Assembly: GCF_000311785.1 (NCBI RefSeq)
Contig: NZ_HE978535.1
Span: 228,776-292,775, forward strand
DNA: 64,000 nt
Direction: 5' to 3'
Origin: Brevibacillus massiliensis
GTDB lineage: Bacteria; Bacillota; Bacilli; Brevibacillales; Brevibacillaceae
The translations under genes and the position numbers were made by a program. The notes below the pieces were generated by a model. It did no database searches. It saw nothing but the letters and a program-made list of their open reading frames with translations, and was not told the DNA's origin. Shown here piece by piece: positions 15,723-62,852 of the stretch (its first letter is position 1; each line of letters begins with the position of its first letter).

Positions 15723-15725
15723 CAT

Positions 15726-17309: not shown

Positions 17310-17345
17310 CCCTCATGGAACAAAAAACAAGAAGGAGGAGTTCCC

Positions 17346-20117: not shown

Positions 20118-20140
20118 ATTCGCAGGAGGGAGGGGCAGCA

Positions 20141-40928: not shown

Positions 40929-41076
40929 TGGTAATATTAGATGAGAGCGTAAAAAAAGCCGCAGGTGTTCCAGCACCTGCGGTTTATACAATAGACGTTC
41001 CCACTAGGGGCGGCTCATAGTTCATCGATGAAGTAGATCACTGAGTTTGGGGCTCAAGGGTGATCTACTTCTTTTT
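40929..41076 (+). ncRNA. Predicted antisense antitoxin RNA of a type I toxin module
   Basis: An extended -10 (TGGTAATAT, 40929-40937) predicts a start near 40944. A terminator follows: AAGTAGATCAC (41031-41041) pairs perfectly with GTGATCTACTT (41060-41070), then CTTTTT. The RNA would be about 130 bases and complementary to the 3' end of the toxin mRNA, including its last codons. This convergent-overlap layout matches txpA/RatA and bsrG/SR4. Inferred; the -35 is poor. Confidence 0.5.
40951..40982 (-). terminator. Terminator of the toxin mRNA (minus strand)
   Basis: Read on the minus strand, CCGCAGGTG pairs with CACCTGCGG (40974-40982 with 40959-40967), followed by C and seven T. Confidence 0.75.
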
Positions 41077-41148
41077 ATGGAACGACAGTATAGCTACGAT
41101 CAACAGACCGAACGTGAGCATCAAAGTTAATGCCTCGAATACTGTCAT
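41065..41148 (-). CDS. Holin-like type I toxin (small hydrophobic peptide)
   Basis: A 27-residue peptide: MTVFEALTLML, then FGLLIVAILSF and a HKKK tail. The MTVFE start, single membrane helix and basic C-terminus match the putative holin-like toxin family of Bacillales, which depolarise or damage the membrane when unrepressed. GAAAGGGGGTGAGCC precedes the ATG. The ribosome binding site is locked in a stem-loop (41150-41179), and the stop codon lies in the terminator of a predicted antisense RNA. Repression by that RNA is inferred from the family and layout. Confidence 0.75.
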   Translation of the reverse strand: MTVFEALTLMLTFGLLIVAILSFHKKK

Positions 41149-41149
41149 T

Positions 41150-41179
41150 GGCTCACCCCCTTTCTATCGGGGATGAGCC
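41150..41179 (-). promoter_or_regulatory. Stem-loop sequestering the toxin ribosome binding site
   Basis: On the minus strand GGCTCATCCCC (41179-41169) pairs with GGGGGTGAGCC (41160-41150), one G-U pair, loop of eight. The right arm is the Shine-Dalgarno sequence directly before the toxin ATG. Such leader structures limit toxin translation in type I systems. Confidence 0.65.
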
Positions 41180-41424
41180 GACCACCCTTGAGGAGCCATT
41201 CTATTGTACAAGCTATATTATACTTTAAACATTCTCATTTGAGGGTGTTTTTTTCCTTTTCATGATCTTGAATCCGGCGGCTTGGACAGATGCATAAGTG
41301 AAAGTGACCAAATTTTCTGTATCGTTTTCCCTTATTTTTATTCAATCTACCCATGTGTGCTTTGATTGTTTCCATTATACAATAAATTCAAATAATAACT
41401 CATGGCAGAAGAGGAGGAAACCGT

Positions 41425-44629: not shown

Positions 44630-45949
44630 ATGGCTGTAAATTTGAACCAATCCTTTGTGCAAGCAATCGTTGACGCTTCCCATGACGGGATCATCGCCGT
44701 CGACCGCGAAGGAAACATCATTCTGGTCAACAAGAACGCGACGGAGATTCTCGGCCTGCCGGAGGGGATTGTCGGAGAACGCATCACCGATTACATTCCC
44801 AATTCGGATATGCTGCGCATTCTGACGACGGGCAAACGAGAGTGGGGCGACATTGCCACGGTGCTGAACCGGCAGATCCTGATCAATCGCCTGCCCATCA
44901 TCATCGACGGCGAGACTGTCGGCGCCGTTTCGACCTTCAAGGAAATCACGGATATCCAAAAAATGGAGATGCGGATTCGCAAACAGTTTACAGAGCACGG
45001 ACTGGAAGCCAAGTACCGGCTGCAGGCCATCGCTGGCAGGTCGCCGGCCATCGCGGAAGCAAAGCTGCTAGCCGAAGAGTTTGCCAGGACTGATGCCACC
45101 GTCCTGATTCTGGGTGAATCAGGGACGGGCAAGGAACTGTTTGCCCAGGGGATCCACCTGGCGAGTTTGCGCGCGACAGGCCCGTTCGTCGCCATCAACT
45201 GTGCGGCACTGCCGGGCAATCTGCTGGAGAGCGAGCTGTTCGGGTATGACGAGGGGGCTTTTACGGGGGCCAGAAAAGGAGGGAAGCCGGGCCTGTTTGA
45301 ACTGGCTCACGGCGGGACGCTGTTTCTCGACGAGATTGGCGAAATGTCCCTGCCGATTCAGGCGATGCTGCTGCGGGTTCTGCAAGAGAGAACGGTACGC
45401 CGCATCGGGGGCGAGAAATTCGTCCCGGTCGACGTGCGGATCGTGGCCGCGACCAACCGCGATCTGGAAGAACTTTTGCACACCAAGCAGTTTCGCTCCG
45501 ATCTGTATTACCGCTTGAACGTCTTGACGCTGGAATTGCCGCCCTTGCGCGAGCGGCTGGCGGACATTCCCGACCTGGTGGAATCGATAATTGGCGAACT
45601 GAGCGAAAAAATCGGCAAGCCGATCCAAGGGGTGGATGCTTCCGTTTACCAGCTGTTCCGGCAGTACGCATGGCCCGGCAACGTCAGGGAACTGCGCAAC
45701 GTAGTGGAGCGGATGGTGCTGCTCGGCAAAGGGACGAGGCTCGGGGAGGAGGATATCGCCTTTTTCGCCAAGCGGCTGGAAGCGCGGGGAGGCAAGCAGC
45801 GGCCCGGGCAGAGGGGGGAAGAGGAGGAGCGGCTGCTCATCAGCTCCACCTTGCAGCTGACACGGGGCAACAAGCAAGAGACGGCCAAGCGGTTGGGGAT
45901 GGATCGGACGACACTTTGGCGCAAAATGAAAAAATACCGGTTGCGTTAA
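44630..45949 (+). CDS. Sigma-54-dependent activator with PAS domain
   Basis: A 439-residue bacterial enhancer-binding protein. A PAS domain (residues about 8-115) begins [19 protein letters not shown]. The AAA+ domain has Walker A GESGTGKE near residue 162, the sigma-54-contacting GAFTGA at residue 209 and Walker [13 protein letters not shown]. The C-terminal Fis-type HTH reads [21 protein letters not shown]. It probably senses a small molecule through PAS and activates the -24/-12 promoter that begins just after its own stop codon, and possibly the one at 55529. B. subtilis relatives include RocR and AcoR. Confidence 0.93.
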
Positions 45950-46040: not shown

Positions 46041-46056
46041 TGGCACGGTTATTGCT
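46041..46056 (+). promoter_or_regulatory. Sigma-54 (-24/-12) promoter
   Basis: TGGCACGGTTATTGCT matches the consensus TGGCACG-N4-TTGCW exactly, with the required GG-N10-GC spacing. The expected transcription start is near 46067, which supports the downstream ATG at 46100 and excludes the ATG at 46040. Confidence 0.85.
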
Positions 46057-46099: not shown

Positions 46100-47173
46100 A
46101 TGAACCGTTATTCTGTAGCAGTGATTGCTGGGGACGGGATTGGTCCCGAAGTGATGGCGGAAGGATTGAAAGTGTTGCAGGCGGTAGAGCGCATTCACGG
46201 CGGGCTGCTGTTTGAGCGGCGGGCGTTTGACTGGAACTGCCGCCGCTATCTGCAGTGCGGCAGGATGATGCCGGAGAACGGGCTGGAGATTCTGCGCGAG
46301 TTTGACGCCATTTTGCTCGGGGCGATCGGCTCCCCGATGGTCCCCGATCACATCTCAGTCTGGGAGCTGATCCTGCCGATCCGTCGGCAGTTCCAGCAGT
46401 ATGTGAACCTCCGTCCGATCAAGCTGCTCCGGGGATTGGAGAGTCCGCTCCGCTACAAGCAGCACGCCGAACTGGACTTCGTGGTCGTGCGGGAGAACAC
46501 CGAGGGGGAGTACTCCAATATGGGCGGACGGCTGCATGTGAACACGCCCTATGAGTTGGCGGTGCAAAATAACGTCTTTACCCGGTTCGGCTGCGAACGC
46601 GTCATCCGTTACGCCTTTTCCCTCGCCGAACAGCGGGGAGCGGGATGCGTGACGGCCGCGACGAAATCCAATGGCATCAACCATTCCATGCCGTTCTGGG
46701 ATGAGGTCGTCAGGGAAGTGGGCCGTGGGTACCCCGGGCTGCAGGTACAGCTGACCCACATCGATGCACTGGTCTCGTACTTCATCAGCAGGCCGGAGAG
46801 CATGGGGGTCGTAGTGGCCAGCAATTTATTCGGCGATATCCTGACCGACCTGGGGGCGGCGATTGTCGGCGGTCTCGGATTGTCTCCTTCCGGCAACATC
46901 AATCCGGAAAAAACCTTTCCGTCCATGTTTGAACCGATCCACGGGTCGGCACCCGATATCGCCGGGCAGGGGATTGCCAATCCGATCGCCCAGATCTGGA
47001 GCATCAGCATGATGCTGGATCATCTGGGTTATCCGGAACTGGGCAAGCTCGTTCTGGACAGCATAGAAGCGGTGCTGCAAGAGGGGCTCATCCGCACCCC
47101 GGACATCGGCGGAACGGCGACGACGGCTGAGCTCGGAGCAGCGATTGTCGACAAATTGATGCAGTTGGAGTAA
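46100..47173 (+). CDS. Tartrate/D-malate dehydrogenase-type beta-decarboxylating dehydrogenase
   Basis: A 357-residue member of the isocitrate/isopropylmalate dehydrogenase superfamily. The subgroup marks FDWNCRRYLQCGRMMP, LGAIGSPMVPDHISVWE and YVNLRPIKLL resemble tartrate dehydrogenase/D-malate dehydrogenase (TtuC, DmlA, YeaU). The NAD-binding region ends EPIHGSAPDIAGQGIANPIA. It would oxidise and decarboxylate D-malate, tartrate or a similar 2-hydroxyacid. AAAGGGGCAGCAG precedes the ATG at 46100. First gene of the sigma-54 operon. LeuB is unlikely because no leu genes are present. Confidence 0.88.
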   Translation: MNRYSVAVIAGDGIGPEVMAEGLKVLQAVERIHGGLLFERRAFDWNCRRYLQCGRMMPENGLEILREFDAILLGAIGSPMVPDHISVWELILPIRRQFQQYVNLRPIKLLRGLESPLRYKQHAELDFVVVRENTEGEYSNMGGRLHVNTPYELAVQNNVFTRFGCERVIRYAFSLAEQRGAGCVTAATKSNGINHSMPFWDEVVREVGRGYPGLQVQLTHIDALVSYFISRPESMGVVVASNLFGDILTDLGAAIVGGLGLSPSGNINPEKTFPSMFEPIHGSAPDIAGQGIANPIAQIWSISMMLDHLGYPELGKLVLDSIEAVLQEGLIRTPDIGGTATTAELGAAIVDKLMQLE

Positions 47174-47189
47174 AAAGGAGGCGAGAAAG

Positions 47190-47948
47190 ATGCTGCTGCA
47201 GGAGAAAGTGGCGATCATCACAGGCGGTGGCTCCGGGATGGGGCGGGCGATGGCCCGGCTTTTCGACTCACAGGGGGCAAAAGTCGTCGTTGCGGACGTG
47301 AATGGAGCTGCCGCCCGGCAGACGGCGGAAGCGCTGACCGGCGATTCCGTCGCGGCGGTCACGGATGTAACGGCGGAAGCGCAGGTGAAAGAACTGACAG
47401 AGCAGGTGATCGGGCGGTACGGCAAGGTGGATATCCTGGTGAACAACGCTGGCATGCCGATGTCGTTTACGCCGATTGAAGAGGTATCCGGCGAACAGTG
47501 GAACAGGATCATGGATGTGAATGTGAAATCGGTCTACCTGACTGCCAAGTATGTCGTGCCGCATATGAAGCGGCAGGGCTTCGGCGTCATCGTCAATACC
47601 GCTTCGATCGCCGGGGTGCGGGCCCGTCCCGGACTAAACGCCTACTGCGCCTCGAAAGGGGCCGTTATCATGCTGACAAAGGCGCTTGCGATCGAGCTGG
47701 CTCCCTACAAAATCCGGGTCAACGGCATCAATCCCGGCCCGGCGGATACGCCTATGCTGCCGAGGTTTATGAACGGCGATCAGGAACAGATCGAACGGGA
47801 GACAAAAGAGATATTCTTAAGCAGCGTCCCGCTCGGCTCGCTGATTCAGCCGGAAGACGTCGCACAGGCGGCCCTGTACCTTTGCAGCGACATGGCGAAG
47901 CTGGTGACAGGGGAAATCCTTCATGTGGACGGAGGACGAGGCATATAG
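47190..47948 (+). CDS. Short-chain dehydrogenase/reductase
   Basis: A 252-residue classical SDR. The cofactor motif is TGGGSGMGRA, with Asp in VVADVN suggesting NAD(H) preference. NNAG is followed by the catalytic Ser in NTASIAG and YxxxK in YCASK. The C-terminus ends ILHVDGGRGI. It is FabG-like in form, but the location 16 bases after the dehydrogenase indicates a catabolic oxidation of a hydroxy compound. AAAAGGAGGCG precedes the ATG. Confidence 0.88.
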   Translation: MLLQEKVAIITGGGSGMGRAMARLFDSQGAKVVVADVNGAAARQTAEALTGDSVAAVTDVTAEAQVKELTEQVIGRYGKVDILVNNAGMPMSFTPIEEVSGEQWNRIMDVNVKSVYLTAKYVVPHMKRQGFGVIVNTASIAGVRARPGLNAYCASKGAVIMLTKALAIELAPYKIRVNGINPGPADTPMLPRFMNGDQEQIERETKEIFLSSVPLGSLIQPEDVAQAALYLCSDMAKLVTGEILHVDGGRGI

Positions 47949-48074
47949 CAGGATTTGTGCAAATATTCTGGTACTGATTGGATCAATCGGCCTGTTGGCA
48001 TGTCCCGCTATCGCCAAGATCTGACTTGCCATTGTAGAACGGCTGAAACAATTGGCCAAGAAAGGGGAGAGGTC

Positions 48075-48944
48075 ATGAAGAAGGAAGCGCTCATCCGGGT
48101 GGAAGGCGTCTCATTCGCCTACACCATCAACCAAACAAACATCATACCCGTCCTGCGCGACGTGTCTTTTCAGGTTTATCCGGGGGAGTACCTTGCCATG
48201 ATCGGCCACAACGGTTCGGGTAAGTCGACCCTCGCCAAAATGTTAAACGGCATTCTCACTCCCGATGCAGGCGATGTCTGGGTGGAGGGCCTGAATACAA
48301 AAGAAAAGTCGCTGCACCGGGAGATTCGCCGGCGCGTGGGGATGGTTTTTCAGCACCCGGACAACCAGCTCGTCGCGACCATTGTCGAGGACGATGTGGC
48401 CTTTGGTTTGGAGAATATCGGGGTTCCTGCCGATGAGATGAAGCAGCGGGTCGATGAGGCGCTGGAAGCGGTCGGGATGAGCGCATTTCGCCAGCGTCCG
48501 CCGCATCATCTGTCCGGAGGGCAGAAGCAGCGGATCGCCATCGCCGGCATCCTGGCGATGAAGCCGGACTGTATCGTGCTCGACGAGGCGACCAGCATGC
48601 TGGATTCCCACGGCCGCAGGGAAATCCTCGGCGTGATCGGAAAACTGAACAAGGCCGGGATGACGATTGTGTCGGTCACTCACCACATGTCGGAAGCGGC
48701 CGATGCCGACCGGGTGCTGGTGATGGAGGAGGGGCAAATCGTGCTGGAGGGCACGCCCCGCGAAGTGTTTCGGCAAGCGGAGCGGCTGCATGCCCTGCAC
48801 CTTGACGTCCCGCAGGCAAGCCAGCTTGCGGCGGCGGTCAACCGGCAGTACCAGAGGTTTCGGCCCGATCTGATTCACAAGGACGAGATCGTCGATGAAG
48901 TAGAACGGCTGCAGCCGCCAATAGCGGAGGTGAGCGGTTCGTGA
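48075..48944 (+). CDS. ecfA1: ECF transporter ATPase subunit EcfA1
   Basis: A 289-residue ABC ATPase of an energy-coupling-factor vitamin/metal transporter. Walker A GHNGSGKST, Q-loop VFQHPDNQLVATIVEDDVAFG (typical Ecf form), signature LSGGQKQR and Walker B CIVLDEATSMLD are present. GGGGAGAGGTC precedes the ATG at 48075. It overlaps ecfA2 by four bases. There is a 126-base gap from the SDR gene with no obvious promoter. Confidence 0.93.
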   Translation: MKKEALIRVEGVSFAYTINQTNIIPVLRDVSFQVYPGEYLAMIGHNGSGKSTLAKMLNGILTPDAGDVWVEGLNTKEKSLHREIRRRVGMVFQHPDNQLVATIVEDDVAFGLENIGVPADEMKQRVDEALEAVGMSAFRQRPPHHLSGGQKQRIAIAGILAMKPDCIVLDEATSMLDSHGRREILGVIGKLNKAGMTIVSVTHHMSEAADADRVLVMEEGQIVLEGTPREVFRQAERLHALHLDVPQASQLAAAVNRQYQRFRPDLIHKDEIVDEVERLQPPIAEVSGS

Positions 48945-49810
48945 GCCAGCCGCTGCTGCAGGTCAAAGGCCTGCGACACACCTATATGAGAGGAACGCCG
49001 CTTGAGCACACGGCCCTGCACGGCGTCGACATGTACGCAAACAAAGGCGAGTGCGTCGCCATCATCGGCCACACCGGGTCAGGCAAATCGACGTTAATCC
49101 AGCATTTTAACGGACTGCAGCTGCCGGAGTCCGGCCAGGTCGTGATCGATGGCGTCGACCTGTCGCAGCCAAAGCTGAACGTGAAAGAACTGCGGAAAAA
49201 GGTAGGGCTGGTCTTTCAAAACCCGGAAGACCAGTTGTTTGAAAAACTGGTGGGCGACGATGTCGCCTACGGACCATTCAAGCAGGGACTGCCGCTCGAG
49301 CAGGTAGTCGAACAGGTCAAATGGGCGATGGAGCTGGTCGGCCTGTCCTTCGAGGAGATGAAAGACCGGGCCACCTATGCCCTCAGCGGCGGCCAGAAGC
49401 GCAAGGTGGCGCTGGCGGGCGTGCTGGCGCTCCGGCCGAAAATCCTCGTGCTCGATGAGCCGACGGCAGGCCTTGACCCGAAGTCACGCAAGGAATTGTT
49501 GGAGCGGATCAGGTATCTGAACCGGCAGGAGCAGCTGACCGTCATCTTTGTCTCCCACAACATGGAGGAAGTCGCCTACCTCGCCGACCGCGTCTACGTG
49601 ATGGCAGGGGGATGTGTAGTCTGCTCCGGTACTCCGCGCGAGATCTTTGGCAACCGGTCAGTCCTCGAGGAGCATCAGGCGGGAGCGCCGGAGACAGTCG
49701 AGATCCTGTACCGCCTGTACGATCGCGGTTTTGACGTAAAACCAGACGCCTTTTTGGTCGAGGAAGCCGCGCAGGAGATCCTCTCAGTCCTGCCCGGCAT
49801 CAGGAGGTGA
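48941..49810 (+). CDS. ecfA2: ECF transporter ATPase subunit EcfA2
   Basis: A 289-residue second ABC ATPase, with Walker A GHTGSGKST, Q-loop VFQNPEDQLFEKLVGDDVAYG, signature LSGGQKRK and Walker B ILVLDEPTAGLD. It forms a heterodimer with EcfA1. GTG start overlapping the ecfA1 stop (GTGA), with GCGGAGGTGAG upstream. Gene order A1-A2-T follows the standard EcfAA'T module, but here a dedicated S gene is attached. Confidence 0.93.
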   Translation: MSQPLLQVKGLRHTYMRGTPLEHTALHGVDMYANKGECVAIIGHTGSGKSTLIQHFNGLQLPESGQVVIDGVDLSQPKLNVKELRKKVGLVFQNPEDQLFEKLVGDDVAYGPFKQGLPLEQVVEQVKWAMELVGLSFEEMKDRATYALSGGQKRKVALAGVLALRPKILVLDEPTAGLDPKSRKELLERIRYLNRQEQLTVIFVSHNMEEVAYLADRVYVMAGGCVVCSGTPREIFGNRSVLEEHQAGAPETVEILYRLYDRGFDVKPDAFLVEEAAQEILSVLPGIRR

Positions 49811-49816
49811 AGGAAA

Positions 49817-50659
49817 GTGGCGGGCGAATTCGAATTGACGAGAAACATCACCATCGGGCAGTACTTGCCGACCGGCTCCGTCATCCATCGGCTGGATCCG
49901 CGGTATAAACTGGCGGCTTATGTGATCATCGTCATCGCCATCGCGATGTGCAGTTCCTATCTCGGCAACCTGGTTGCGCTGGCGTTCTGTCTGTGGCTGT
50001 TTTGGCAATCCAGGATCCCGATTCACTACGGAATCTCCGGGATCAAGCCAGCCGTGCCTTTTATCATCATTTTAGGAGTGCTGCAGCTTTTGTTTTACGG
50101 GGGGATAGCGACAGGCGGAACCGTTTATTTTGAATACGCTTTCGTCAAAATCACCAGCGCGAGCATCAAACTGGTGATCGTCTCTGCGGTCCGTTTCGTG
50201 GAGATTATCTTCATCTCCAGCGTGCTGACGCTGAGCACGTCCACGACACAGCTGACCCACGGCATGGAGCGTCTGCTCTCCCCGCTGGAAAAAGTAAAGT
50301 TCCCCGTTCACACTTTCGCGGTGGTGATCACCATTGCCGTCCGCTTTGTCCCGACATTTGCGATGGAGATGGAAAAAATGATGAAAGCGCAGGCATCGCG
50401 AGGGGCGGAATTTGGAACAGGCGAATGGTGGCGGATCGTCAAGCGGACGAAGGACATGTTTCCCATCATCATCCCGTTGTTCAACGTAGCGATGACGCGC
50501 GCCGAGGATTTGATTCTCGCCATGGAAGCCCGCTGCTATACCCCCGGTGCGGCGCGAAGCGCATACAACCACTACCGGGCGGCCGCGCGTGATTACGCGG
50601 CTCTGGCCGTTGGCATCCTGGCTGCACTGATCCTGCTCATCGTGCCTGATCCGTTGTAA
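49817..50659 (+). CDS. ecfT: ECF transporter membrane subunit EcfT
   Basis: A 280-residue scaffold membrane protein with about six hydrophobic segments. The coupling-helix motifs are QASRGAEF and EARCYTPG, the positions where EcfT proteins carry Ala-Arg-Gly-type motifs that grip the ATPases. The start contains SVIHRLDPRYKL, a family hallmark. GTG start after AGGAGGTGAAGGAAA, six bases past ecfA2. Confidence 0.92.
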   Translation: MAGEFELTRNITIGQYLPTGSVIHRLDPRYKLAAYVIIVIAIAMCSSYLGNLVALAFCLWLFWQSRIPIHYGISGIKPAVPFIIILGVLQLLFYGGIATGGTVYFEYAFVKITSASIKLVIVSAVRFVEIIFISSVLTLSTSTTQLTHGMERLLSPLEKVKFPVHTFAVVITIAVRFVPTFAMEMEKMMKAQASRGAEFGTGEWWRIVKRTKDMFPIIIPLFNVAMTRAEDLILAMEARCYTPGAARSAYNHYRAAARDYAALAVGILAALILLIVPDPL

Positions 50660-50724
50660 GCCCCGTAACAGGGAGTTGCCCCCGGCAGGGGGATTCCACA
50701 TATCAGGCAAAAGGAGGAATAACG

Positions 50725-51276
50725 ATGGAAAAAGGCTTGACCGTACGCAAGATCGTGATCGCCGGCGTGCTGGGGGCGATCGCCATTCTGCTTGGCGTGA
50801 CCAGGCTCGGCTCGATTCCGGTGCCGACGGCGGCAGGGAACGCGACGATCATGCATATCCCCACCGTCATCGGGGGGATTATGGGAGGCTGGGGAGTCGG
50901 TCTGGTTATCGGTCTCATTTTTGGGGTATCTTCATTTCTCAACGCGACGATCCCGCTGTTCAAAGACCCCTTGGTCGCGATTTTGCCGCGGCTGTTTATC
51001 GGCATCACGGCCTACCTGACCTATGTCGGGCTGAAGAACGTCAACCAGTACCTGGCCATCGGAGCCGCCGGGTTTATCGGCTCGATCACCAACACGGTTC
51101 TCGTCCTGTTCATGGCCGTCGTTCGCGGCTATTTTGCGCCGGGAGTGGCCGTGACCGTCGCCATCGCCAACGGGATTCCCGAGGCGATCGTGTCGGTTAT
51201 CATCACCCTGGCGGTCGTAGCAGCGTGGATGAAGCTCGGTTCAGCCGGAAAGAAAAAATCAAGAATCTCCGGGTAG
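50725..51276 (+). CDS. ECF transporter substrate-binding (S) component, substrate unknown
   Basis: A 183-residue membrane protein with about six hydrophobic helices and the S-component look: small-residue-rich helix 1 (IVIAGVLGAIAILLGVT), IPTVIGGIMGGWGVGLVIG, and a loop with FKDPLVAILPRLFIG. It resembles the general S-component family rather than a named vitamin binder. AAAGGAGGAAT precedes the ATG. Because it lies in a catabolic operon, the ligand may be a growth substrate or a cofactor of the pathway rather than a vitamin scavenged in general. Confidence 0.85.
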   Translation: MEKGLTVRKIVIAGVLGAIAILLGVTRLGSIPVPTAAGNATIMHIPTVIGGIMGGWGVGLVIGLIFGVSSFLNATIPLFKDPLVAILPRLFIGITAYLTYVGLKNVNQYLAIGAAGFIGSITNTVLVLFMAVVRGYFAPGVAVTVAIANGIPEAIVSVIITLAVVAAWMKLGSAGKKKSRISG

Positions 51277-51292
51277 AGAGTATCGCAGCGGA

Positions 51293-51353
51293 GCTTACGC
51301 CCGAGGCATTGCTGCCTTGGGCATAAGCACTGACACAATACGGTCATGACCGT
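51293..51353 (+). repeat. Two stem-loops between the S-component and M20 genes
   Basis: A 16-bp stem with two G-U or similar pairs (51293-51308 with 51313-51328) is followed by the palindrome ACGGTCATGACCGT (51340-51353) and TTTT. A further AAAACGTC/GACGTTTT hairpin lies at about 51414-51431. These may attenuate transcription or define processing between the transporter and enzyme halves of the operon. Confidence 0.55.
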
Positions 51354-51458
51354 TTTCCCCTCTCATCGGAGGACAAAAGTGCCAGCCGCAAGCGGTCACA
51401 TCCATGTTTGATGAAAACGTCAAGACGTTTTTCACAGTAACAGAAAGGCGGGAGAGGA

Positions 51459-52670
51459 ATGTCGATCGATCGTGTTATCTCGTTTGTAGATGAGCGGGAA
51501 GTAGTGGAATTCACTCAAAAACTGGTGCAGATACCCAGTGTTTACCGCCCGGGAGAAGCGGACGGCAACGAACAGCGGGTGGCCCGGTTTGTCGAGGATG
51601 AGCTCAGGCAGATGGGGCTGACCGTTTTCTACGAAGAGGTAGTGCCGGGCAGACCCAATGTCATCGCTTTTTACGATTCGGGCAGGCCGGGCAAGACGCT
51701 CTTGTTCGAAGGGCATACCGATGTAGTCACCGAAGGCGATGCGCAGAAGTGGAGTTACGACCCGTTTGGCGCCGCGATTTCGGGGGGGCGGATTTACGGT
51801 CGCGGTTCCTGTGACACCAAGGGAAATCTGGCTGCGGCGGTCTGCGCGGTAAAGGCGATTCAACGCTCTGGAGAACCATTTTATGGAAAACTATTGCTCT
51901 GCATTCCCTGTGACGAAGAGGGAGAGATGCTGGGCATCCGGCATTTTATCCAGCGCGGTTGGGCCAATGGCGTAGACGGAGCGATTATCTGCGAACCGGA
52001 GGAGAACCAGATTTGCATTACGCAAAAAGGGGCGATTCGGGCTTGTCTGCGCACGTTCGGCAAAATGGCCCACGGCGCCATGCCGCTGACCGGGATCAAC
52101 CCCAATACCCGGATGGCACGTGCCATCGTCGCCTTGGACGAATTGGAGCGCAGGGAGAAAGAGCGGCTGGGTGAACACCCGATGTTGGGCTGGCCGAGCA
52201 TCACGCCGACGATCCTGCAAGCCCCGGTAAAAGGGGAGGCGCAGATCAACGTCGTTCCGGACCAGTGCATGACCACGCTTGATATCCGCACCGTGCCAGG
52301 TCAGGATCACGATGTGTTGAAAGGGCAAATCGAGGAGATTTTGGCCGTCTTGTCGCGGGAGGATGAGAACTTCAAGGCAGAACTGGAGATTATCGTGGAG
52401 CGGCCGTGGACCCAGACATCGAAAGAAGACACCGTCGTCCGGGCTGTTGCCGATTCTTACCGCGCGATTACCGGCAAGGAGCCGGTCTACAACGGGGTGC
52501 CCGGTTCGACGGATGGCACGTACCTGCACCTGGCCGGAGTGCCGATTATCACCACAGGCGCCGGTGACCGCCACATCCCGCATCACGCCGATGAATACGT
52601 CGACATCGACCAATTGGTCGAGACGACCCAGCTGTACGCTCGGTCGGCGCTAGCATTTCTTTCCGAGTGA
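51459..52670 (+). CDS. M20-family metallo-deacylase (ArgE/DapE type)
   Basis: A 403-residue zinc-dependent amidohydrolase. Metal and catalytic motifs: FEGHTDVV, YGRGSCDTKGN, and CDEEGE near residue 150. It then has an insert dimerisation domain and the C-terminal GVPGSTDGTYLH with a late HHADEYV histidine. Members remove acyl groups from N-acyl amino acids such as N-acetylornithine or N-succinyl-diaminopimelate. In this operon it probably releases an amino acid or amine from an amide substrate. GCGGGAGAGGA precedes the ATG. Confidence 0.87.
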   Translation: MSIDRVISFVDEREVVEFTQKLVQIPSVYRPGEADGNEQRVARFVEDELRQMGLTVFYEEVVPGRPNVIAFYDSGRPGKTLLFEGHTDVVTEGDAQKWSYDPFGAAISGGRIYGRGSCDTKGNLAAAVCAVKAIQRSGEPFYGKLLLCIPCDEEGEMLGIRHFIQRGWANGVDGAIICEPEENQICITQKGAIRACLRTFGKMAHGAMPLTGINPNTRMARAIVALDELERREKERLGEHPMLGWPSITPTILQAPVKGEAQINVVPDQCMTTLDIRTVPGQDHDVLKGQIEEILAVLSREDENFKAELEIIVERPWTQTSKEDTVVRAVADSYRAITGKEPVYNGVPGSTDGTYLHLAGVPIITTGAGDRHIPHHADEYVDIDQLVETTQLYARSALAFLSE

Positions 52671-52697
52671 GGAGACAAACCAGGGGGATTGAAAAAG

Positions 52698-54068
52698 ATG
52701 GAACTCTACACACAGCTCGCTTCGATACTGTCAGCAGATCAGGTGACGGCTAACCCGACTGTGCTCGAACAGCACAGCCGGGATGAATCGTACCATTCTC
52801 CGCATCGGCCGGATGTCGTTGTCTTTCCGCAAAATGCAGAAGAGGTAAGCCGCGTGCTGGCCTTTGCCCATGCACATCGGCTGCCGGTCGTGCCGTTTGG
52901 GCTTGGCACCAGCCTGGAAGGCCATGTGATCCCGTATCAGGGCGGCATTTCAATTGACATGCAGCGGATGAATCAGATCCTGGAGGTGCGTCCGGCAGAT
53001 TTTTTGGTCAAGGTGCAGCCGGGCGTAACCCGTTCACAATTGAACAAGGAGTTGAAAAAATACGGACTGTTCTTCTCGGTCGACCCCGGTGCGGATGCGA
53101 CCCTGGGCGGGATGGCGGCGACGAACGCCAGCGGCACCACGGCCGTTCGCTACGGCGTGATGAGAGATCAGGTCCGCGCTTTGACAGTCGTCTTGGCGGA
53201 CGGGCGGATCATCCGCACAGGGGGACTGGCGGCAAAATCCTCCGCAGGGTATCACCTGACCGGGCTGTTTGTCGGTTCGGAAGGGACGCTCGGAGTCTTT
53301 ACCGAACTGACTCTGCGGGTGCACGGCATACCGGAGTCCGTCATCGCTGCCCGAGTCGCTTTTCCCACTGTGAAACAAGCTGTCGATTCGGCTGTCGCAA
53401 TCCTTTCGGCCAGTATTCCCGTAGCGAGAATGGAACTGGTAGACGGAGGTTCGATGATGCAGTTGAACCGCCACAGCGGCACTTCGTACCCGGAGCAGCC
53501 GACGCTGTTTATGGAGTTCCACGGCAACGAGGCCGGTCTGCTCCATGATATCCGGTTCGCCGAGGAACTGGCAGCAGATCAGGGATGTCTGGGGTTTGTT
53601 CACGAGATCGATTCGAAGGAACGTACCCGCCTGTGGGAGGCCCGGCACAACCTCGCATACGCTTTTGGGCACGGGCATCCGGGAAAACGGATGATGACGA
53701 CCGATGTGTGTGTTCCGATCAGCCAATTGGCAGATGCCGTCGAGCACGCCCGGCTGCAGATCGATCGTTCCGGTTTGGCGGGCGGCGTGCTGGGCCATAT
53801 CGGCGACGGCAATTTCCATGCCCTGTTGATGATCGATCCGGACCGGCGTGAAGACCTGCAGCGGGCTGAAGCGGTCAATGCCGCGATTGTTCGGCATGCG
53901 CTTGACCGCGGCGGGACATGCACCGGAGAACACGGGGTCGGGGTCGGCAAAGCCAAATACCTGCGGCAGGAGCACGGCGAGGCAGTAGATGTGATGGCCC
54001 AGGTAAAACGGGCGATCGATCCTCACGGGATCTTGAACCCGGGTAAAATCTTTCCATCTCTAAAATAG
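52698..54068 (+). CDS. FAD-linked oxidase (GlcD/D-lactate dehydrogenase type)
   Basis: A 456-residue flavoprotein of the PCMH-type FAD-binding family with a C-terminal FAD-oxidase domain. It oxidises a D-2-hydroxyacid such as glycolate, D-lactate or D-2-hydroxyglutarate. Motifs include VVPFGLGTSLEGH, DPGADATLGGMAATNASG and a C-terminal HIGDGNFHALL and GTCTGEHGVG. Both are hallmark FAD and metal sites of GlcD and D-LDH. GGGGG precedes the ATG at 52698 (TTG at 52689 is too close). It follows the M20 gene by 27 bases. Confidence 0.9.
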   Translation: MELYTQLASILSADQVTANPTVLEQHSRDESYHSPHRPDVVVFPQNAEEVSRVLAFAHAHRLPVVPFGLGTSLEGHVIPYQGGISIDMQRMNQILEVRPADFLVKVQPGVTRSQLNKELKKYGLFFSVDPGADATLGGMAATNASGTTAVRYGVMRDQVRALTVVLADGRIIRTGGLAAKSSAGYHLTGLFVGSEGTLGVFTELTLRVHGIPESVIAARVAFPTVKQAVDSAVAILSASIPVARMELVDGGSMMQLNRHSGTSYPEQPTLFMEFHGNEAGLLHDIRFAEELAADQGCLGFVHEIDSKERTRLWEARHNLAYAFGHGHPGKRMMTTDVCVPISQLADAVEHARLQIDRSGLAGGVLGHIGDGNFHALLMIDPDRREDLQRAEAVNAAIVRHALDRGGTCTGEHGVGVGKAKYLRQEHGEAVDVMAQVKRAIDPHGILNPGKIFPSLK

Positions 54069-54079
54069 GAGGCAGAGCG

Positions 54080-55411
54080 ATGAATCAAACCGGAGCTGCA
54101 TTAGGCGAACAAACCATTCGCAAAGTGAAGTGGCGGATTCTTCCGTTTCTCTTTCTGCTCTACATCATTGCCTATCTGGATCGGGTCAACCTCGGATACG
54201 CGGCTCTTGACATGAACAAGGCGCTGGCCATTTCCAGCCAGACGTTTGGGCTGGTCTCGGGGATCTTCTTCATCGGCTATTTCCTGTTTGAAATCCCCAG
54301 CAACATGATCCTCCACCGGATCGGAGCGAGAATCTGGATTGCCCGGATCATGATTACCTGGGGGATTGTCGTCATTCTGACGGGCTGGGTGCAGAATGCC
54401 GCTCACCTGTACATCCTGCGGTTTTTGCTGGGTCTGGCCGAGGCGGGATTCTTTCCGGGAGTCATCTTGTACATCACGTATTGGTTCCGGGCCAAAGAAC
54501 AGGCCCGCGCCGTCGCCTTGCTGATGACGGCCCTCGCGGCTTCCAACATCATCGGGGCACCGCTGTCCACCTGGATCATGACCTATATCGATTGGGCGGG
54601 GATGGCTGGCTGGCGGTGGATGTTTGTCATCGAAGGCCTGCCGGCGATCATCTTCGGCGTGGTTGCATTTACCTACATGACGGATCGCCCCGAACAGGCA
54701 AAGTGGTTGACGGCGGAAGAGAAAGCGTGGCTGGTGGCGGAATTAAAGCGGGAACACGAAGAAAAAATCAGACGGAGGCAGTACACGACCAGAGAGGTGC
54801 TGACCAACGGGCCGGTCTGGCATCTGGCCTTTATTTACTTCGCATTGGTCATCGGGCTGTACGGCATCGGCTTCTGGATGCCATCGATCATCAAATCCTT
54901 TCCGGCAAACTACACCAACCTGCAGGTGGGCTTGCTCAGCATGATTCCCTACGTCGTCGCAGGACTAGCCATGGTGGGCTGGGCCCGGCGTTCAGACCGG
55001 ACGGGGGAAAGGAAATTTCACGCCGCTCTGCCTCCCATACTCGGCGGGCTTGCGCTGATCGTCTGCGGCATGTCTTCCCACCCGATTCTGTCCGTTGCCC
55101 TCATGGCTGTGGCAACGGCGGGCATTTACAGCTTTTTCGGACCGTTTTGGGCTTTGCCGGCGCTGTTTTTAAGTGAAGGAGCGGCGGCGATCGGAATTGC
55201 CCTGATCAACTCGATCGGGAATCTCGGCGGGTTTGTCGGTCCCTACGTCGTCGGCTCCCTGAAAGAGGCGACCGGGAAGACAGAGGCGGGTCTGTTCTTC
55301 CTTGCCTGCTGCGTCCTGGCTGCAGCGGTTTTGGTACTGCTGCTGCGAAAGAAAACGATTGAAGCGGGACGACAGAACAAGACCGATTTCAAGGGATCTT
55401 CTCATTTTTGA
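54080..55411 (+). CDS. MFS transporter, anion:cation symporter (ACS) family
   Basis: A 443-residue major facilitator with 12 hydrophobic segments. The ACS marks YLDRVNLGYAAL after helix 1, GIFFIGYFLFEIPSNMIL, and LGLAEAGFFPGVILYITYWF are clear. Family members carry tartrate, galactonate, phthalate and other organic acid anions. It is therefore a good match for uptake of the hydroxyacid used by the operon's dehydrogenases. TAGGAGGCAGAGCG precedes the ATG, 12 bases after the oxidase. Confidence 0.9.
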   Translation: MNQTGAALGEQTIRKVKWRILPFLFLLYIIAYLDRVNLGYAALDMNKALAISSQTFGLVSGIFFIGYFLFEIPSNMILHRIGARIWIARIMITWGIVVILTGWVQNAAHLYILRFLLGLAEAGFFPGVILYITYWFRAKEQARAVALLMTALAASNIIGAPLSTWIMTYIDWAGMAGWRWMFVIEGLPAIIFGVVAFTYMTDRPEQAKWLTAEEKAWLVAELKREHEEKIRRRQYTTREVLTNGPVWHLAFIYFALVIGLYGIGFWMPSIIKSFPANYTNLQVGLLSMIPYVVAGLAMVGWARRSDRTGERKFHAALPPILGGLALIVCGMSSHPILSVALMAVATAGIYSFFGPFWALPALFLSEGAAAIGIALINSIGNLGGFVGPYVVGSLKEATGKTEAGLFFLACCVLAAAVLVLLLRKKTIEAGRQNKTDFKGSSHF

Positions 55412-55527: not shown

Positions 55528-55543
55528 TGGCATCATACTTGCT
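55528..55543 (+). promoter_or_regulatory. Second sigma-54 (-24/-12) promoter
   Basis: TGGCATCATACTTGCT fits TGGCA-N6-TTGCW with exact GG-N10-GC spacing. The expected start near 55554 lies just before the aminotransferase start codon. Confidence 0.7.
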
Positions 55544-55567: not shown

Positions 55568-56950
55568 ATGAAAAGGGTGATGAGATTGGAACGGAAGACG
55601 ACAGCAGAAGCGTTACAATTGGCGTATGAGGTGTTGGGATTTATCCAGAGCGAGACGCTGACGGTAGAGCAGAAGAAGCAGATCGTCTCAGACTCGATTG
55701 AGAATTTCAGCAATTACGTCACGAAGGCGATCCTCGCCCATCGCAAGTCGGTTTCACACGACTTTTCCGTGGTGGAATGGGAAGACGAAGCGGCAGTCTT
55801 TCGCGACACGATGGGTGACGAGTACATCGATTGCCTGGGTGGTTACGGCGTCTACCTGCTCGGCCACCGCCACCCCAAGGTGGTGCAGGCTGTCTCCGCC
55901 CAGCTGAAGCGGTACGCCTTGCACAGCCAGGAGATGGTCGACCCCCTGCGCGGCTATCTGTCCAAGCTGGTAGCGTACATCACTCCGGGCGATTTGCAGC
56001 ACTCCTACCTGGTCAACTGCGGTACGGAGGCCAACGAAATGGCGTTGAAGCTGGCCCGGCTGGCAACCGGCAAAAAGTACTTTATATCGATGGAAAAGGG
56101 CTTCCACGGCAAGACGATGGGATCGCTGTCCGCTTCCAGCAAACCGGCCTTCCGCCAGCCGTACCTGCCGCTCGTCCCGGGGTTCCAGCACGTGCCGTTC
56201 GGCGATGCCGACGCGGTCGAACAGGCGATTCGCATGCTGATCAACACGGGCGAGACGGTCGCCGGCGTCATCGTGGAACCTATCCAGGGAGAAGGCGGAG
56301 TGAATATCCCGCCGGATGATTACCTGCCGCGACTGCGCCAAATCTGTGACAAGTACGAATGTCTATTGATCGTCGATGAGATTCAGACCGGAATGGGACG
56401 GACCGGAACGCTGTTCGGGGTCGACCATTGGGATGTCGTGCCGGACATCATGACGCTCGGCAAGGCTTTTGGCGGCGGTGTGATGCCGATCGCCGCGATG
56501 GTGGCGAAGCGCAAATGGTGGAGCAAGATGGAGGAAAATCCCTTCCTGCTGGGCTCCTCTACCTTTGGCGGCAACCCCCTCTGCTGTGCCGGTGCGATTG
56601 CCGGGATCCATGCGATTTTGGAGGAGAACATCCCGCAGATGGCGAAGGAGAAGGGGGATTACATCCTGAAACACCTGGAGGACATTCAGTCACGCCACCC
56701 CGACGTCCTCGTCGACGTCCGCGGCAAAGGGCTTTTAATCGGCATGGAGTTTGCCGACAACAGCCTTGGCTACACGCTGGCGAAACAGCTCTTCGGCAAG
56801 AAGATTCTCGTTGGCGGCACCCTGAACAACGCGACAGTGATTCGGATCGAACCGCCGGCCGTGATCTCCTACGAGCAGATCGATTACGTCCTGGCGTGCA
56901 TCGAGGAAGGCATCGCCCAGCTGTCCCGGGAAGGCAAGGTTGCGCGCTAA
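55568..56950 (+). CDS. Class III aminotransferase, putrescine-type
   Basis: A 460-residue PLP enzyme most like putrescine aminotransferase (YgjG/PatA) and ornithine aminotransferases. Motifs: a long N-terminal region, NCGTEANEMALKLAR, KGFHGKTMGS, LLIVDEIQTGMGRTG and the PLP lysine in TLGKAFGGGVMP. It would transfer an amino group from putrescine, ornithine or another omega-amine to 2-oxoglutarate. The start could be ATG 55568, ATG 55580 or TTG 55586; the AAAAGGGTGAT before the last is the best ribosome binding site. It has its own sigma-54 promoter, which links it to the same regulon as the upstream operon. Confidence 0.88.
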   Translation: MKRVMRLERKTTAEALQLAYEVLGFIQSETLTVEQKKQIVSDSIENFSNYVTKAILAHRKSVSHDFSVVEWEDEAAVFRDTMGDEYIDCLGGYGVYLLGHRHPKVVQAVSAQLKRYALHSQEMVDPLRGYLSKLVAYITPGDLQHSYLVNCGTEANEMALKLARLATGKKYFISMEKGFHGKTMGSLSASSKPAFRQPYLPLVPGFQHVPFGDADAVEQAIRMLINTGETVAGVIVEPIQGEGGVNIPPDDYLPRLRQICDKYECLLIVDEIQTGMGRTGTLFGVDHWDVVPDIMTLGKAFGGGVMPIAAMVAKRKWWSKMEENPFLLGSSTFGGNPLCCAGAIAGIHAILEENIPQMAKEKGDYILKHLEDIQSRHPDVLVDVRGKGLLIGMEFADNSLGYTLAKQLFGKKILVGGTLNNATVIRIEPPAVISYEQIDYVLACIEEGIAQLSREGKVAR

Positions 56951-59782: not shown

Positions 59783-59837
59783 TTGCCAAAACAAGGGAAA
59801 CAGGGTATAGTTAAGTACATTATTACATTGTATGTAC
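59783..59837 (+). promoter_or_regulatory. Promoter and dyad operator upstream of the SorC-family gene
   Basis: TTGCCA (59783-59788), 17 bases, TATAGT (59806-59811). Immediately downstream GTACAT (59815-59820) and ATGTAC (59832-59837) form an inverted repeat over the expected start of transcription. This suits autorepression by the SorC-family protein. Confidence 0.55.
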
Positions 59838-59867
59838 ATTTGTGCAAGGCGGGTGATCAAGGCTCGG

Positions 59868-60842
59868 ATGACGGACATGAAAACAGAAAAAAACAGGCTT
59901 CTTGTAAAAATATGCAAGCTCTATTACGAGGATGGATGTAATCAACAGGAGATTGCGGAGCGCATTGGCATCTCCCGCCCTCACGTCAGCCGAATGCTGG
60001 CGGCTGCCAAAGCAGAGGGAATCGTCCAGATATCGATTAAGAATCCGTATTCCGCCGAACAGCAAATGGAGCAATTGCTGGTTGATACCTTTGGCATTCA
60101 GGACGTCGTTGTGGTTGACACCCCCCCAGATGAACAGAAGCTGTATGTGCAGCTGGGGAGAACGACCGCGGTCCTGCTGGAATCGATCCTCAAGGACAAC
60201 GATATCGTAGGCGTTATGGCCGGTCGGACGATCGCCGCCATCGGTGACGAACTGGAGTTTTTCAGCAAAAACAACCTGCAATTTGTGCCGCTGGTGGGCG
60301 GCTGGGGTTCGGAGGGGGCGCCATGGCATGCCAACTCCAACACGATGGCGATCGCGGGCAAGTTGAAGTCCAAGTACTGGCTGCTGCATGCGCCAGCCGT
60401 TGTCTCCAATGAGGAAACCGGGGTGCTGCTGAGGAGCGAACCGGGAATCAGCAAGGTTCTCCATTTGGCCAAATCCTGTCAGGTTGCGGTGGTAGGCATC
60501 GGGGACGTCTCTGAGCGGTCGACGATCGCAGAGGCAGGTCATTTCAGCGGCGAAGATCTGGAGAGCGTGAAGGGGACAGGAGCTGCCGCCACCTTATGCG
60601 CCTCGTTCCTCGATGCCGACGGGAGGACGATTGACCACCCTGTAAAAAAGCGGATGATCGGGCTGACAGCCGAAGAACTGCGCGGCATCCCCAAGGTGAT
60701 TGCGGTGGCAGGTGGCCGCGATAAGGCAGCGGCGATTGCGGCGGTGCTCCGCGGCAAATGGGTCGACGTTCTCGTCACGGATTTGGCTACGGCACAGGCC
60801 GTATTCGCATTTCATCGAAATACCGCCGCAAAGAAAGGATGA
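59868..60842 (+). CDS. SorC/DeoR-type sugar-binding transcriptional regulator
   Basis: A 324-residue regulator with an N-terminal HTH (LYYEDGCNQQEIAERIGISRPHVSRML in two parts, residues about 15-45) and a large C-terminal SorC sugar-binding domain (VGVMAGRTIAAIGDEL, FVPLVGGWGSEG, VVGIGDVSERS, VIAVAGGRDKAAAI). Family members, such as CggR, GapR and DeoR of Bacillus, sense phosphorylated sugars. GGGTGATC precedes the ATG at 59868. It overlaps or abuts the trpB-like gene and probably controls it. Confidence 0.85.
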   Translation: MTDMKTEKNRLLVKICKLYYEDGCNQQEIAERIGISRPHVSRMLAAAKAEGIVQISIKNPYSAEQQMEQLLVDTFGIQDVVVVDTPPDEQKLYVQLGRTTAVLLESILKDNDIVGVMAGRTIAAIGDELEFFSKNNLQFVPLVGGWGSEGAPWHANSNTMAIAGKLKSKYWLLHAPAVVSNEETGVLLRSEPGISKVLHLAKSCQVAVVGIGDVSERSTIAEAGHFSGEDLESVKGTGAAATLCASFLDADGRTIDHPVKKRMIGLTAEELRGIPKVIAVAGGRDKAAAIAAVLRGKWVDVLVTDLATAQAVFAFHRNTAAKKG

Positions 60843-60847
60843 GAAGA

Positions 60848-62083
60848 GTGAGCACAAACGGATATTACGGCAATTACGGGGGCACGTACATCCCGGAAAT
60901 TTTGTACCCGGCCTTTCAGGAATTAAACCGCGAATTCGAAAAGATCAAAAACGACTCCGCATTTTGGAGTGAGTACTGCGACATCCTGGCCAATTTTTCC
61001 GGCCGGCCGACGCCGTTGACGTACGCCGACAGGCTGACAGAGCACTTTGGCCGGGCGAAGATCTACATCAAACGGGAAGATTTGAATCACTCCGGCGCCC
61101 ATAAACTCAACAACGCGCTGGGGCAGGGGCTGCTCGCCAAGCGGATGAACAAGACGCGGGTGATTGCGGAGACCGGCGCCGGGCAGCATGGCGTTGCCAC
61201 TGCAATCGTGGCGGCAAAATTGGGGCTTAAGGCGACGATTTACATGGGCCGCGAGGATGTGGAACGACAGTACGCCAACGTGTTCTGGATGAAGCGGTTC
61301 GGGGCCGAAGTCGTCCCGGTCGAGTACGGGACCCGCACGCTCAAAGACGCCATCAACGAGGCACTGCGAGACTGGGTGTCCAGCTTCGAAACGACCCACT
61401 ACCTCTTGGGAACAGCTTCGGGCGCCCATCCGTTCCCGGCGATCGTCGCGTTTTTCCAGTCGATCATCGGCATCGAGGCGAAGGAACAGATCCTGCGCCT
61501 GGAAGGCAGGCTGCCAAAGAGCGTATACGCCTGCGTCGGCGGCGGATCAAATGCCCTGGGCGTTTTCCAGGCGTTCCTGCCCGACACGGAGGTGGAACTG
61601 GTCGGAGTGGAAGCGGGCGGCAAAGGGCCGGACTCGGGAAAACATGCGGCCCGCATTGCGTACGGGACCGGAAAAGCGGGGGTCGCACAAGGTTACAAGA
61701 CGCTGTTTCTGCAGGATGAGGACGGACAGATGCGCGACACCTACAGCATTGCCGCCGGACTAGATTACACCGGCGTCTCGCCGATTTTGGCCGACTTGTC
61801 CGAACAGGGCCGGGTGCGGTTTGAAGCGGCGACCGACGATGAAGTGACCCAGGCTCTTGAGCTGGTGATGCGCAAGGAAGGCATGATACCGGCGCTGGAA
61901 TCCACCCATGCCTTTGCCGGGGCATTCAAGGATATGGGCGGTACCTCGAAATCCGACATCATCCTGATCAATATGTCTGGACGGGGAGATAAAGACATTT
62001 TTAACATAGCGGAGGGATTGAAAGATGACGAGTGGACAGCCTTTATCGAGCGCAAACAGAAACAGTATGAGCAGTCTCGCTGA
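60848..62083 (+). CDS. trpB: Tryptophan synthase beta-chain-like protein (TrpB)
   Basis: A 411-residue PLP enzyme of the TrpB1 class. The PLP lysine is Lys86 in HSGAHKLNN and the catalytic Glu108 is in AETGAGQHG, nearly the classical numbering. The phosphate loop is GGGSNALG. TrpB makes tryptophan from indole and serine. It differs from the usual setting in being paired with a SorC regulator rather than trpEGDCF. Start GTG 60848 has AAAGGATGAGAAGA upstream; ATG 60839 would overlap the regulator stop. Confidence 0.88.
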   Translation: MSTNGYYGNYGGTYIPEILYPAFQELNREFEKIKNDSAFWSEYCDILANFSGRPTPLTYADRLTEHFGRAKIYIKREDLNHSGAHKLNNALGQGLLAKRMNKTRVIAETGAGQHGVATAIVAAKLGLKATIYMGREDVERQYANVFWMKRFGAEVVPVEYGTRTLKDAINEALRDWVSSFETTHYLLGTASGAHPFPAIVAFFQSIIGIEAKEQILRLEGRLPKSVYACVGGGSNALGVFQAFLPDTEVELVGVEAGGKGPDSGKHAARIAYGTGKAGVAQGYKTLFLQDEDGQMRDTYSIAAGLDYTGVSPILADLSEQGRVRFEAATDDEVTQALELVMRKEGMIPALESTHAFAGAFKDMGGTSKSDIILINMSGRGDKDIFNIAEGLKDDEWTAFIERKQKQYEQSR

Positions 62084-62852
62084 CGAGATCGTCGCAAAGC
62101 GCGGGCAGAAACGAATTTTGCTGATGACCCACCAAATCCTGGGCTACCCAGACTTCGAGACGAATTACGAGATGATTCGCCTGTTTGCCGAATGCGGCGT
62201 CGATCTGGTGGAACTGCAGCTGCCTTTTTCCGAGCCGATTGCCGACGGCCCTGTGTTCCTGAAGGCCAACCAGGAAGCGTTGAATCGGGGAACGACTGTA
62301 GAACAGTGCCTGGACTTCGCCCGCCGGGTCACCGAGGAATTTCCGCTGTCTTTTATTTTCATGACCTACTACAACATCTTGTACCAGTACGGCGTCGAGC
62401 GTTTTGTTGAAACGGCTCGGTCGATTGGCATTCGCGGCTTGATCGTGCCGGACGCCTATCCGGAAGAAAGCCCGGAGTACCTGACTGCCTGCAAAAAGCA
62501 CGGGGTGGAGCCGATCCTGCTCGCCACGCCTTACACGCCGGAGGAGCGTTTGCAGTATCTGTCGAATGAGACGGGGGGACTTTTGTACTGCGTGGCGAGG
62601 AAGGGCGTCACTGGCGCCAAGACGGAATTTGACCAAGCGACGACTGACTTTTTGTCCCGCTGCCGCCGCCACGCTGCCACGCCGATCGGCGTAGGCTTCG
62701 GCATCCAGCACAGCGAGGACGTGGAGTACCTGGCGGGAAAAAGCGATGTCGCGATCATCGGCAGCCAGCTGCTCAAACTGCTGGAAGCGGAAGGGCTTGC
62801 CGGGGTGAGAAAGTTCTTGTTGGAGCTAAAGGCTGTAACAGAGGGAAGATAG
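62025..62852 (+). CDS. trpA: Tryptophan synthase alpha-chain-like protein (TrpA)
   Basis: A 275-residue TIM-barrel protein of the TrpA family, which cleaves indole-3-glycerol phosphate to indole. Counting from the internal ATG at 62067, the catalytic residues fall at Glu49 (VELQLPFSEP) and Asp60 (IADGP), the canonical positions. The phosphate-binding loops are present as KGVTGAKTEF and GVGFGI/IIGSQL. The N-terminal strand (ILLMTHQILGYP) is unusual. I list the ATG at 62025 because GGAGGGATTGAAAG precedes it; this overlaps trpB by 59 bases. ATG 62067 is the alternative by homology. It forms an operon with trpB and the regulator. Confidence 0.82.
   Translation: MTSGQPLSSANRNSMSSLADEIVAKRGQKRILLMTHQILGYPDFETNYEMIRLFAECGVDLVELQLPFSEPIADGPVFLKANQEALNRGTTVEQCLDFARRVTEEFPLSFIFMTYYNILYQYGVERFVETARSIGIRGLIVPDAYPEESPEYLTACKKHGVEPILLATPYTPEERLQYLSNETGGLLYCVARKGVTGAKTEFDQATTDFLSRCRRHAATPIGVGFGIQHSEDVEYLAGKSDVAIIGSQLLKLLEAEGLAGVRKFLLELKAVTEGR

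Follow-up and report, generated by a model that had tools for sequence, protein, structure and literature searches.

Which nutrient does a bacterium take up when a complete energy-coupling factor (ECF) transporter is encoded among the enzymes of a catabolic operon, and what becomes of that nutrient inside the cell? The question is raised by nine genes at positions 46100-55411 of a 64,000-nucleotide window (the whole stretch of DNA analysed) from Brevibacillus massiliensis (assembly GCF_000311785.1, contig NZ_HE978535.1, positions 228,776 to 292,775). An earlier note had read them as a catabolic operon that includes all the genes of an ECF transporter, of unknown substrate, under a single sigma-54 promoter. 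As the inducing nutrient it had suggested an N-acyl compound or an amide-linked hydroxyacid that M20 would cleave, with tartrate and D-malate among the compounds to be tried. The operon very probably serves, on induction, to take up pantothenate (vitamin B5) by way of a dedicated, probably high-affinity ECF-PanT transporter and to break it down. Gene content, membership of the S component in the PanT family, the linkage of that component to coaX and of the M20 gene to PanF, PanB and PanE, and a conserved sigma-54 site were all computed here. Pantothenate is pantoyl-β-alanine, and the amide-linked hydroxyacid of the earlier note would thus have been right in kind.

Identity of the S component

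The EcfS protein (50725..51276, + strand) matched no NCBIfam model, and in Pfam only the general family PF12822. A search of its single sequence against all PDB chains recovered 4RFS (E = 9e-6) and 6ZG3 (0.002), both S subunits of pantothenate ECF transporters (ECF-PanT), with no further match below E = 10; a profile of 21 S sequences returned the same two entries at 5e-17 and 2e-11, the sole other match being due to chance. When an AlphaFold2 model of the protein (pLDDT 81.8) was submitted to Foldseek, 4RFS and 6ZG3 again occupied the first two ranks, ahead of ThiT, RibU, FolT and BioY. Mutation of R95, N131 and W64 in the PanT of Levilactobacillus brevis has shown the importance of these residues for pantothenate binding (PMC7755397), and R95 and N131 align to R89 and N123 of the S protein, identical residues that are invariant across the family.

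Genomic linkage pointed to the same substrate. When 399 genomes drawn from across the phylum were searched with the profile, 135 proved to carry a member of the S family, and neighbourhoods were fetched from 40 of the positive genomes, picked to sample approximately one per family. In 22 of these the S gene was adjoined by coaX, the gene for type III pantothenate kinase, where random placement would yield ~0.06 cases in 40 genomes. The same adjacency was recorded at loci L085 and L088 (Atribacteria and Bacillota metagenome-assembled genome), and the identity of coaX was confirmed with NCBIfam on three examples (L085, L088 and L139).

On the combined evidence of sequence profile, fold and coaX linkage, the S protein is a member of the PanT family, and its substrate can no longer be called unknown: coaX adjacency together with the structural matches identifies pantothenate, with high confidence, as the compound that the family would transport. 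The earlier note had held that its view would fail if the S component clustered with a known vitamin family and were not conserved with the enzymes; the first part proved to be so, yet the second did not, the association with the enzymes being strongly conserved.

The M20 amidohydrolase and its genomic company

The extent of that association was established at the 63 S loci that a scan covering 84,980 species genomes had yielded, genes being counted within 10 kb; most of these loci are from related Bacillota, and the counts are not those of independent events. M20 was present in 36 of the 63 and was replaced by an amidase-signature enzyme in five Neobacillus-type loci, so that one or other amidase occurred in 41. 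A hydrolase of peptidase family S58 was recorded in 39, a short-chain dehydrogenase (SDR) in 23, one of two aldehyde dehydrogenase (ALDH) families in 21, a TtuC-type dehydrogenase in 18, and a sigma-54 activator in 17, although the L085 match among the last is a distant response regulator. Among 100 relatives, an M20 orthologue was found in 32 of the 35 that carry the S gene and in 2 of the 65 that lack it, a difference the significance of which is inflated by kinship.

The M20 amidohydrolase (51459..52670, + strand), which scored above the TIGR01910 (ArgE/DapE) cut-off and has its metal-site motifs intact, sits in the operon in most of the ECF loci. A search with an alignment of the M20 enzymes, from which 20 further neighbourhoods were read in addition to L181, revealed seven genomes (L181, L188-L191, L203 and L204) in which the M20 gene accompanies a symporter of the PanF family. 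In L188 the two genes are separated by an OPT transporter gene and an S58 gene; in the other six they are direct neighbours. All seven symporters passed the NCBIfam panF equivalog (TIGR02119; cut-off 328), scoring 619-720 bits. The gene order in L203 and L204 is PanF - M20 - TtuC - SDR - ALDH, while L189 and L190 have PanF - M20 - class III transaminase together with genes for PanB and PanE, and L191 has formate-tetrahydrofolate (THF) ligase and panB genes nearby. PanB and PanE are enzymes of pantoate metabolism. Because the same hydrolase adjoins two unrelated pantothenate transporters, PanT and PanF, as well as pantoate enzymes, it would appear to cut pantothenate, and this linkage provides the strongest argument for the proposal that M20 is pantothenase (EC 3.5.1.22).

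The L189 and L190 clusters also carry aldehyde ferredoxin oxidoreductase genes, with formate-THF ligase in L189 as well; these two, and also L191, look like systems for an anaerobic, retro-biosynthetic fermentation of pantothenate. Plasmid-borne M20 homologues from Thermus and Deinococcus (42-44% identity) occupied other genomic contexts that have no bearing on the pantothenate proposal. One of them, on a Deinococcus aetherius plasmid (L173), is 44% identical to the M20 of the operon and lies near preA and dihydropyrimidinase; such relatives may act on N-carbamoyl-β-alanine, which would fit a preference for N-acyl-β-alanines.

A representative complete operon is that of B. borstelensis (L037): activator - TtuC - ALDH - SDR - EcfA1A2T - EcfS - S58 - M20. 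Members of the B. brevis group have the equivalent genes divided between two loci, one consisting of activator - ECF - S - S58 - M20 and the other, with activators of its own, of TtuC - ALDH - SDR - TRAP transporter - GlcD - formate-THF ligase. This second locus (L175 7970-17338, and likewise L176-L178 and L183), in which the TRAP transporter is DctPQM, may represent a form of the pathway that starts from imported pantoate. The two halves are joined in differing arrangements in many lineages (L037, L053, L063, L132 and L185).

The S58 enzymes of the relatives retain the N|TTI autoprocessing motif of ThnT-like hydrolases, and their closest solved structures were nylon hydrolase and an aminopeptidase/esterase, followed by ThnT; through them the pathway could also draw on pantetheine or other pantothenamides. 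An S58 enzyme was considered as the pantothenase itself, which is possible, yet several PanF-M20 and PanT-M20 clusters lack S58. At L161 (3302-5871), coaX, an S component and an S58 hydrolase stand side by side without M20, an arrangement suggesting that S58 enzymes serve salvage by freeing pantothenate from amides or from pantetheine, and one for which a pantetheine or pantothenamide hydrolase is a better fit than a pantothenase.

Operon organisation and the proposed pathway

All of the named genes are intact and co-directional on the + strand at the coordinates assigned in the earlier note, nine open genes lying downstream of the promoter. A strict pattern search located that near-consensus sigma-54 promoter (TGGCACG-N4-TTGCT; TGGCACGgttaTTGCT) at 46041..46056 (+ strand), 43 bp upstream of the TtuC gene and as one of only two matches in the 64 kb window. 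Just outside the region covered by the earlier note, a gene at 44630..45949 (+ strand) encodes a PAS + AAA+ + Fis-type sigma-54 activator (Pfam Sigma54_activat 2e-69, PAS, HTH_8); activators 71-76% identical to its product head the same operon in the Brevibacillus loci, and it is a probable inducer-responsive regulator. Among 16 relatives having both activator and ECF genes, the strict match was found directly 5' of the first operon gene in 13, whichever gene happened to lead (EcfA1, TtuC or ALDH). This conserved pairing of a -24/-12 element with an adjacent AAA+ activator is that of a sigma-54-dependent operon, and speaks for the one promoter envisaged in the earlier note rather than separate promoters for the ECF genes.

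The promoter is followed by a TtuC/DmlA-type decarboxylating dehydrogenase (46100..47173; TIGR02089 and NF006048 above cut-off) and an SDR dehydrogenase (47190..47948; PF13561, 8e-69), both also supported by synteny. The transporter genes then run contiguously from 48075 to 51276, as in a Group I ECF system with a dedicated module: EcfA1 (48075..48944; TIGR04520 above cut-off), EcfA2 (48941..49810; TIGR04521 above cut-off), the transmembrane coupling protein EcfT (49817..50659; PF02361, 7.5e-33) and EcfS. Downstream of M20 lie a GlcD-type FAD 2-hydroxyacid dehydrogenase/oxidase (52689..54068; PF02913, PF01565) and an ACS-family carrier of the major facilitator superfamily for anions (54080..55411), the latter matching TIGR00893 with 335 bits, below the cut-off of 395. 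Intergenic distances range from -4 to 65 bp, save for 126 bp between SDR and EcfA1 and 182 bp between EcfS and M20; neither of these two gaps held a convincing sigma-70 promoter or terminator on the coding strand, and a single transcript from one promoter is a plausible and likely prediction from the sequence. The view that a catabolic operon carries its own complete ECF transporter is accordingly upheld by the contiguous EcfA1-A2-T-S genes and the conserved synteny of the enzymes.

In Pseudomonas, pantothenate is degraded by enzymes EC 3.5.1.22, 1.1.1.106, 1.2.1.33 and 1.1.1.84, pantoate being converted through aldopantoate and 3,3-dimethylmalate to 2-ketoisovalerate. For the present operon we infer each enzymatic step, the inducer and the transported substrate as follows. 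The PAS domain of the activator likely responds to a small-molecule inducer, of which pantothenate or pantoate is the natural guess, and the activator would then switch the operon on. Pantothenate imported by the dedicated ECF-PanT would be hydrolysed at its amide bond by M20 to yield pantoate and β-alanine, and the SDR, proposed as pantoate 4-dehydrogenase (EC 1.1.1.106), would oxidise the 4-hydroxyl (a primary alcohol) of (R)-pantoate to give aldopantoate. Conversion of the latter to 3,3-dimethylmalate would fall to an ALDH, in the operon in many relatives and here encoded elsewhere if at all. 3,3-Dimethylmalate is (R)-malate with two methyl groups on C3, and the TtuC family oxidatively decarboxylates malate-type acids; the TtuC gene is conserved beside ALDH and SDR in relatives, and from this genomic context its product is proposed as 3,3-dimethylmalate dehydrogenase (EC 1.1.1.84), which would yield 2-ketoisovalerate. 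The operon thus holds both an SDR alcohol dehydrogenase and a β-decarboxylating TtuC, as the pathway needs if their putative substrates are correct.

GlcD and ACS would have auxiliary roles in a C2-oxidation branch and in anion transport. GlcD orthologues (67-73%) occur in related catabolic clusters (L175-L181, L183), and since the formate-THF ligase gene adjoins GlcD in Brevibacillus, the enzyme perhaps effects a C2 oxidation of pantoate or dimethylmalate, its role being uncertain. The ACS carrier, which recurs in the operons of L043, L044, L093 and L180, is proposed as a pantoate or pantothenate permease. Both are recurrent members of the wider set of loci.

The β-alanine released would pass to the transaminase and CoA-acylating semialdehyde dehydrogenase of a pyrimidine-degradation cluster in the same window (11658-14625). 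The first of these is a candidate transaminase of the β-alanine type (13243-14625), the second a methylmalonate-semialdehyde dehydrogenase (11658-13217). The full cluster, for reductive pyrimidine degradation (11658-21031), which would also consume β-alanine from pantothenate, includes PreT-like, PreA, dihydropyrimidinase and carbamoyl-amine amidase genes. A class III aminotransferase, of the putrescine type, immediately beyond the operon (55568-56950) was rejected as its β-alanine transaminase: it scored above the NF008570 cut-off and has its own sigma-54-like site directly upstream (55528-55543), forming a separate unit. Elsewhere in the window, a full-length match to the Rfam family BsrG (RF01412; 135 bits, gathering threshold 55) was recorded at 40960-41208 on the - strand, flanked by cytochrome oxidase genes on one side and a gene for a Rieske oxygenase on the other, and a DeoR/LsrR-type regulator precedes end-overlapping reading frames for trpB and trpA (59832-62852). 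In Bacillus subtilis, BsrG is known as an RNA of a type I toxin-antitoxin system.

Competing explanations and comparison with known systems

A number of observations weigh against pantothenate catabolism as set out above. The position of PanT W64 is occupied in the S protein by F66, a residue shared by all 21 sequences compared. TtuC exceeds the equivalog cut-offs for tartrate dehydrogenase (TIGR02089, 507.9 against a cut-off of 470.4; NF006048, 515.8 against 501) and finds its closest PDB match in tartrate dehydrogenase, 3flk; its sequence does not by itself decide among tartrate, D-malate and dimethylmalate. The operon in the window has no ALDH gene, and the closest homologue in this genome (57%) was rejected as a pathway member, its neighbours as judged by eye (PdxA-like, DUF1537-type kinase, TRAP) suggesting a four-carbon sugar-acid operon. 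An S58 gene is likewise absent: no trace of a remnant was detected in the 182-bp EcfS-M20 gap, and no linked genes were seen around a copy elsewhere in the genome (66%). The textbook pathway makes no provision for GlcD or ACS, the 126-bp and 182-bp gaps could hold other elements, and in around a dozen Neobacillus loci the ECF-S set is accompanied by none of the enzymes.

The lack of an ALDH gene lends some colour to a variant of pantothenate catabolism that is mainly retro-biosynthetic, in which GlcD would oxidise pantoate to ketopantoate and PanB, acting in reverse, would produce 2-ketoisovalerate and methylene-THF. Although GlcD recurs, the formate-THF ligase gene adjoins it in Brevibacillus, and PanB, PanE or formate-THF ligase accompany PanF-M20 in L189-L191, the variant is unlikely for this operon: it would leave the retained SDR and TtuC without a role, and panB, panE and formate-THF ligase are all absent from the window.

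The divided loci of the B. brevis group, each half with its own activator or activators and the second with TRAP and GlcD, suggest another possibility, namely that two functions have become fused, ECF-PanT (with S58) and M20 dealing with pantothenate and TtuC-(ALDH)-SDR-GlcD-ACS with a different hydroxyacid acquired through TRAP or ACS. This is improbable given that the halves are joined variously in many lineages, and with PanF in L203 and L204, and that the three oxidoreductases are exactly those that pantoate needs, from which it follows that the TRAP version may import pantoate.

There is very little to recommend pure vitamin salvage for CoA synthesis with the enzymes as mere passengers. 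PanT/coaX loci elsewhere are indeed salvage systems, and several Neobacillus loci carry the transporter alone, but the enzyme synteny is conserved, hydrolysis of the vitamin would be superfluous, and sigma-54 control is typical of catabolism. Moreover, the host genome has panC and the organism probably makes its own pantothenate; salvage alone is then not needed, which fits pantothenate as a food.

Catabolism of tartrate, D-malate or some hydroxyacid amide, with an ECF transporter of novel specificity, is the least credible proposal. TtuC does pass the tartrate dehydrogenase cut-offs, and hydroxyacids and sugar acids are what the GlcD and ACS families deal with, but sequence, fold and coaX linkage all place S in the PanT family, the M20, SDR and TtuC genes keep company with PanF as well as PanT, and tartrate leaves the amidohydrolase unexplained.

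Inducible pantothenate catabolism is accordingly preferred, and it seems likely that the operon represents a family of vitamin-B5-consuming operons that extends past the Bacillota. Within that family ECF-PanT, PanF and other importers would stand in for one another, as would M20 and amidase-signature enzymes, and pantoate would take one of two routes, either oxidative via dimethylmalate or retro-biosynthetic via PanE and PanB; the family would thus supply genes for enzymes known only as activities. The protein identity of pantothenase was still unknown as of 2023 (PMC10393543). No gene for it or for the later steps was found in the open-access literature, a description in a subscription journal being possible. 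The operon and its relatives name candidates for these activities in M20 (or the amidase), SDR, ALDH and the TtuC-like enzyme; annotations of such TtuC genes as 'tartrate dehydrogenase' are probably wrong. A vitamin ECF transporter has apparently been put to catabolic use, a matter that bears on the turnover of vitamin B5 in soil and on microbes which, instead of sharing the vitamin, could destroy it.

The pathway and the ECF-PanT kind of transporter are already known, whereas the catabolic operon, the transporter swaps and the gene candidates appear to be new. The Pseudomonas enzymes belong to the biochemistry of the 1960s-70s; their classes match each step here, with ALDH outside the operon and with GlcD and ACS as extras. 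TtuC/DmlA (3FLK) is of the same family and cofactor chemistry as the first gene, the genomic company of which points to 3,3-dimethylmalate, while the pantetheine hydrolase ThnT (S58; 3S3U/3TM1) has the N|TTI motif in common with the S58 enzymes of the relatives, this operon having none. Uptake of pantothenate by an ECF transporter is shared with PanU (YhfU) of B. subtilis, which operates through the general EcfA1-A2-T module for salvage (PMC11487621). The ECF-PanT transporters of Levilactobacillus brevis (4RFS) and Lactobacillus delbrueckii (6ZG3) have the same S family, fold and pocket Arg and Asn; there, however, one ECF module is common to several S components and serves vitamin salvage, whereas here the pocket Trp is replaced by Phe and A1-A2-T are encoded with S in a catabolic operon under sigma-54.

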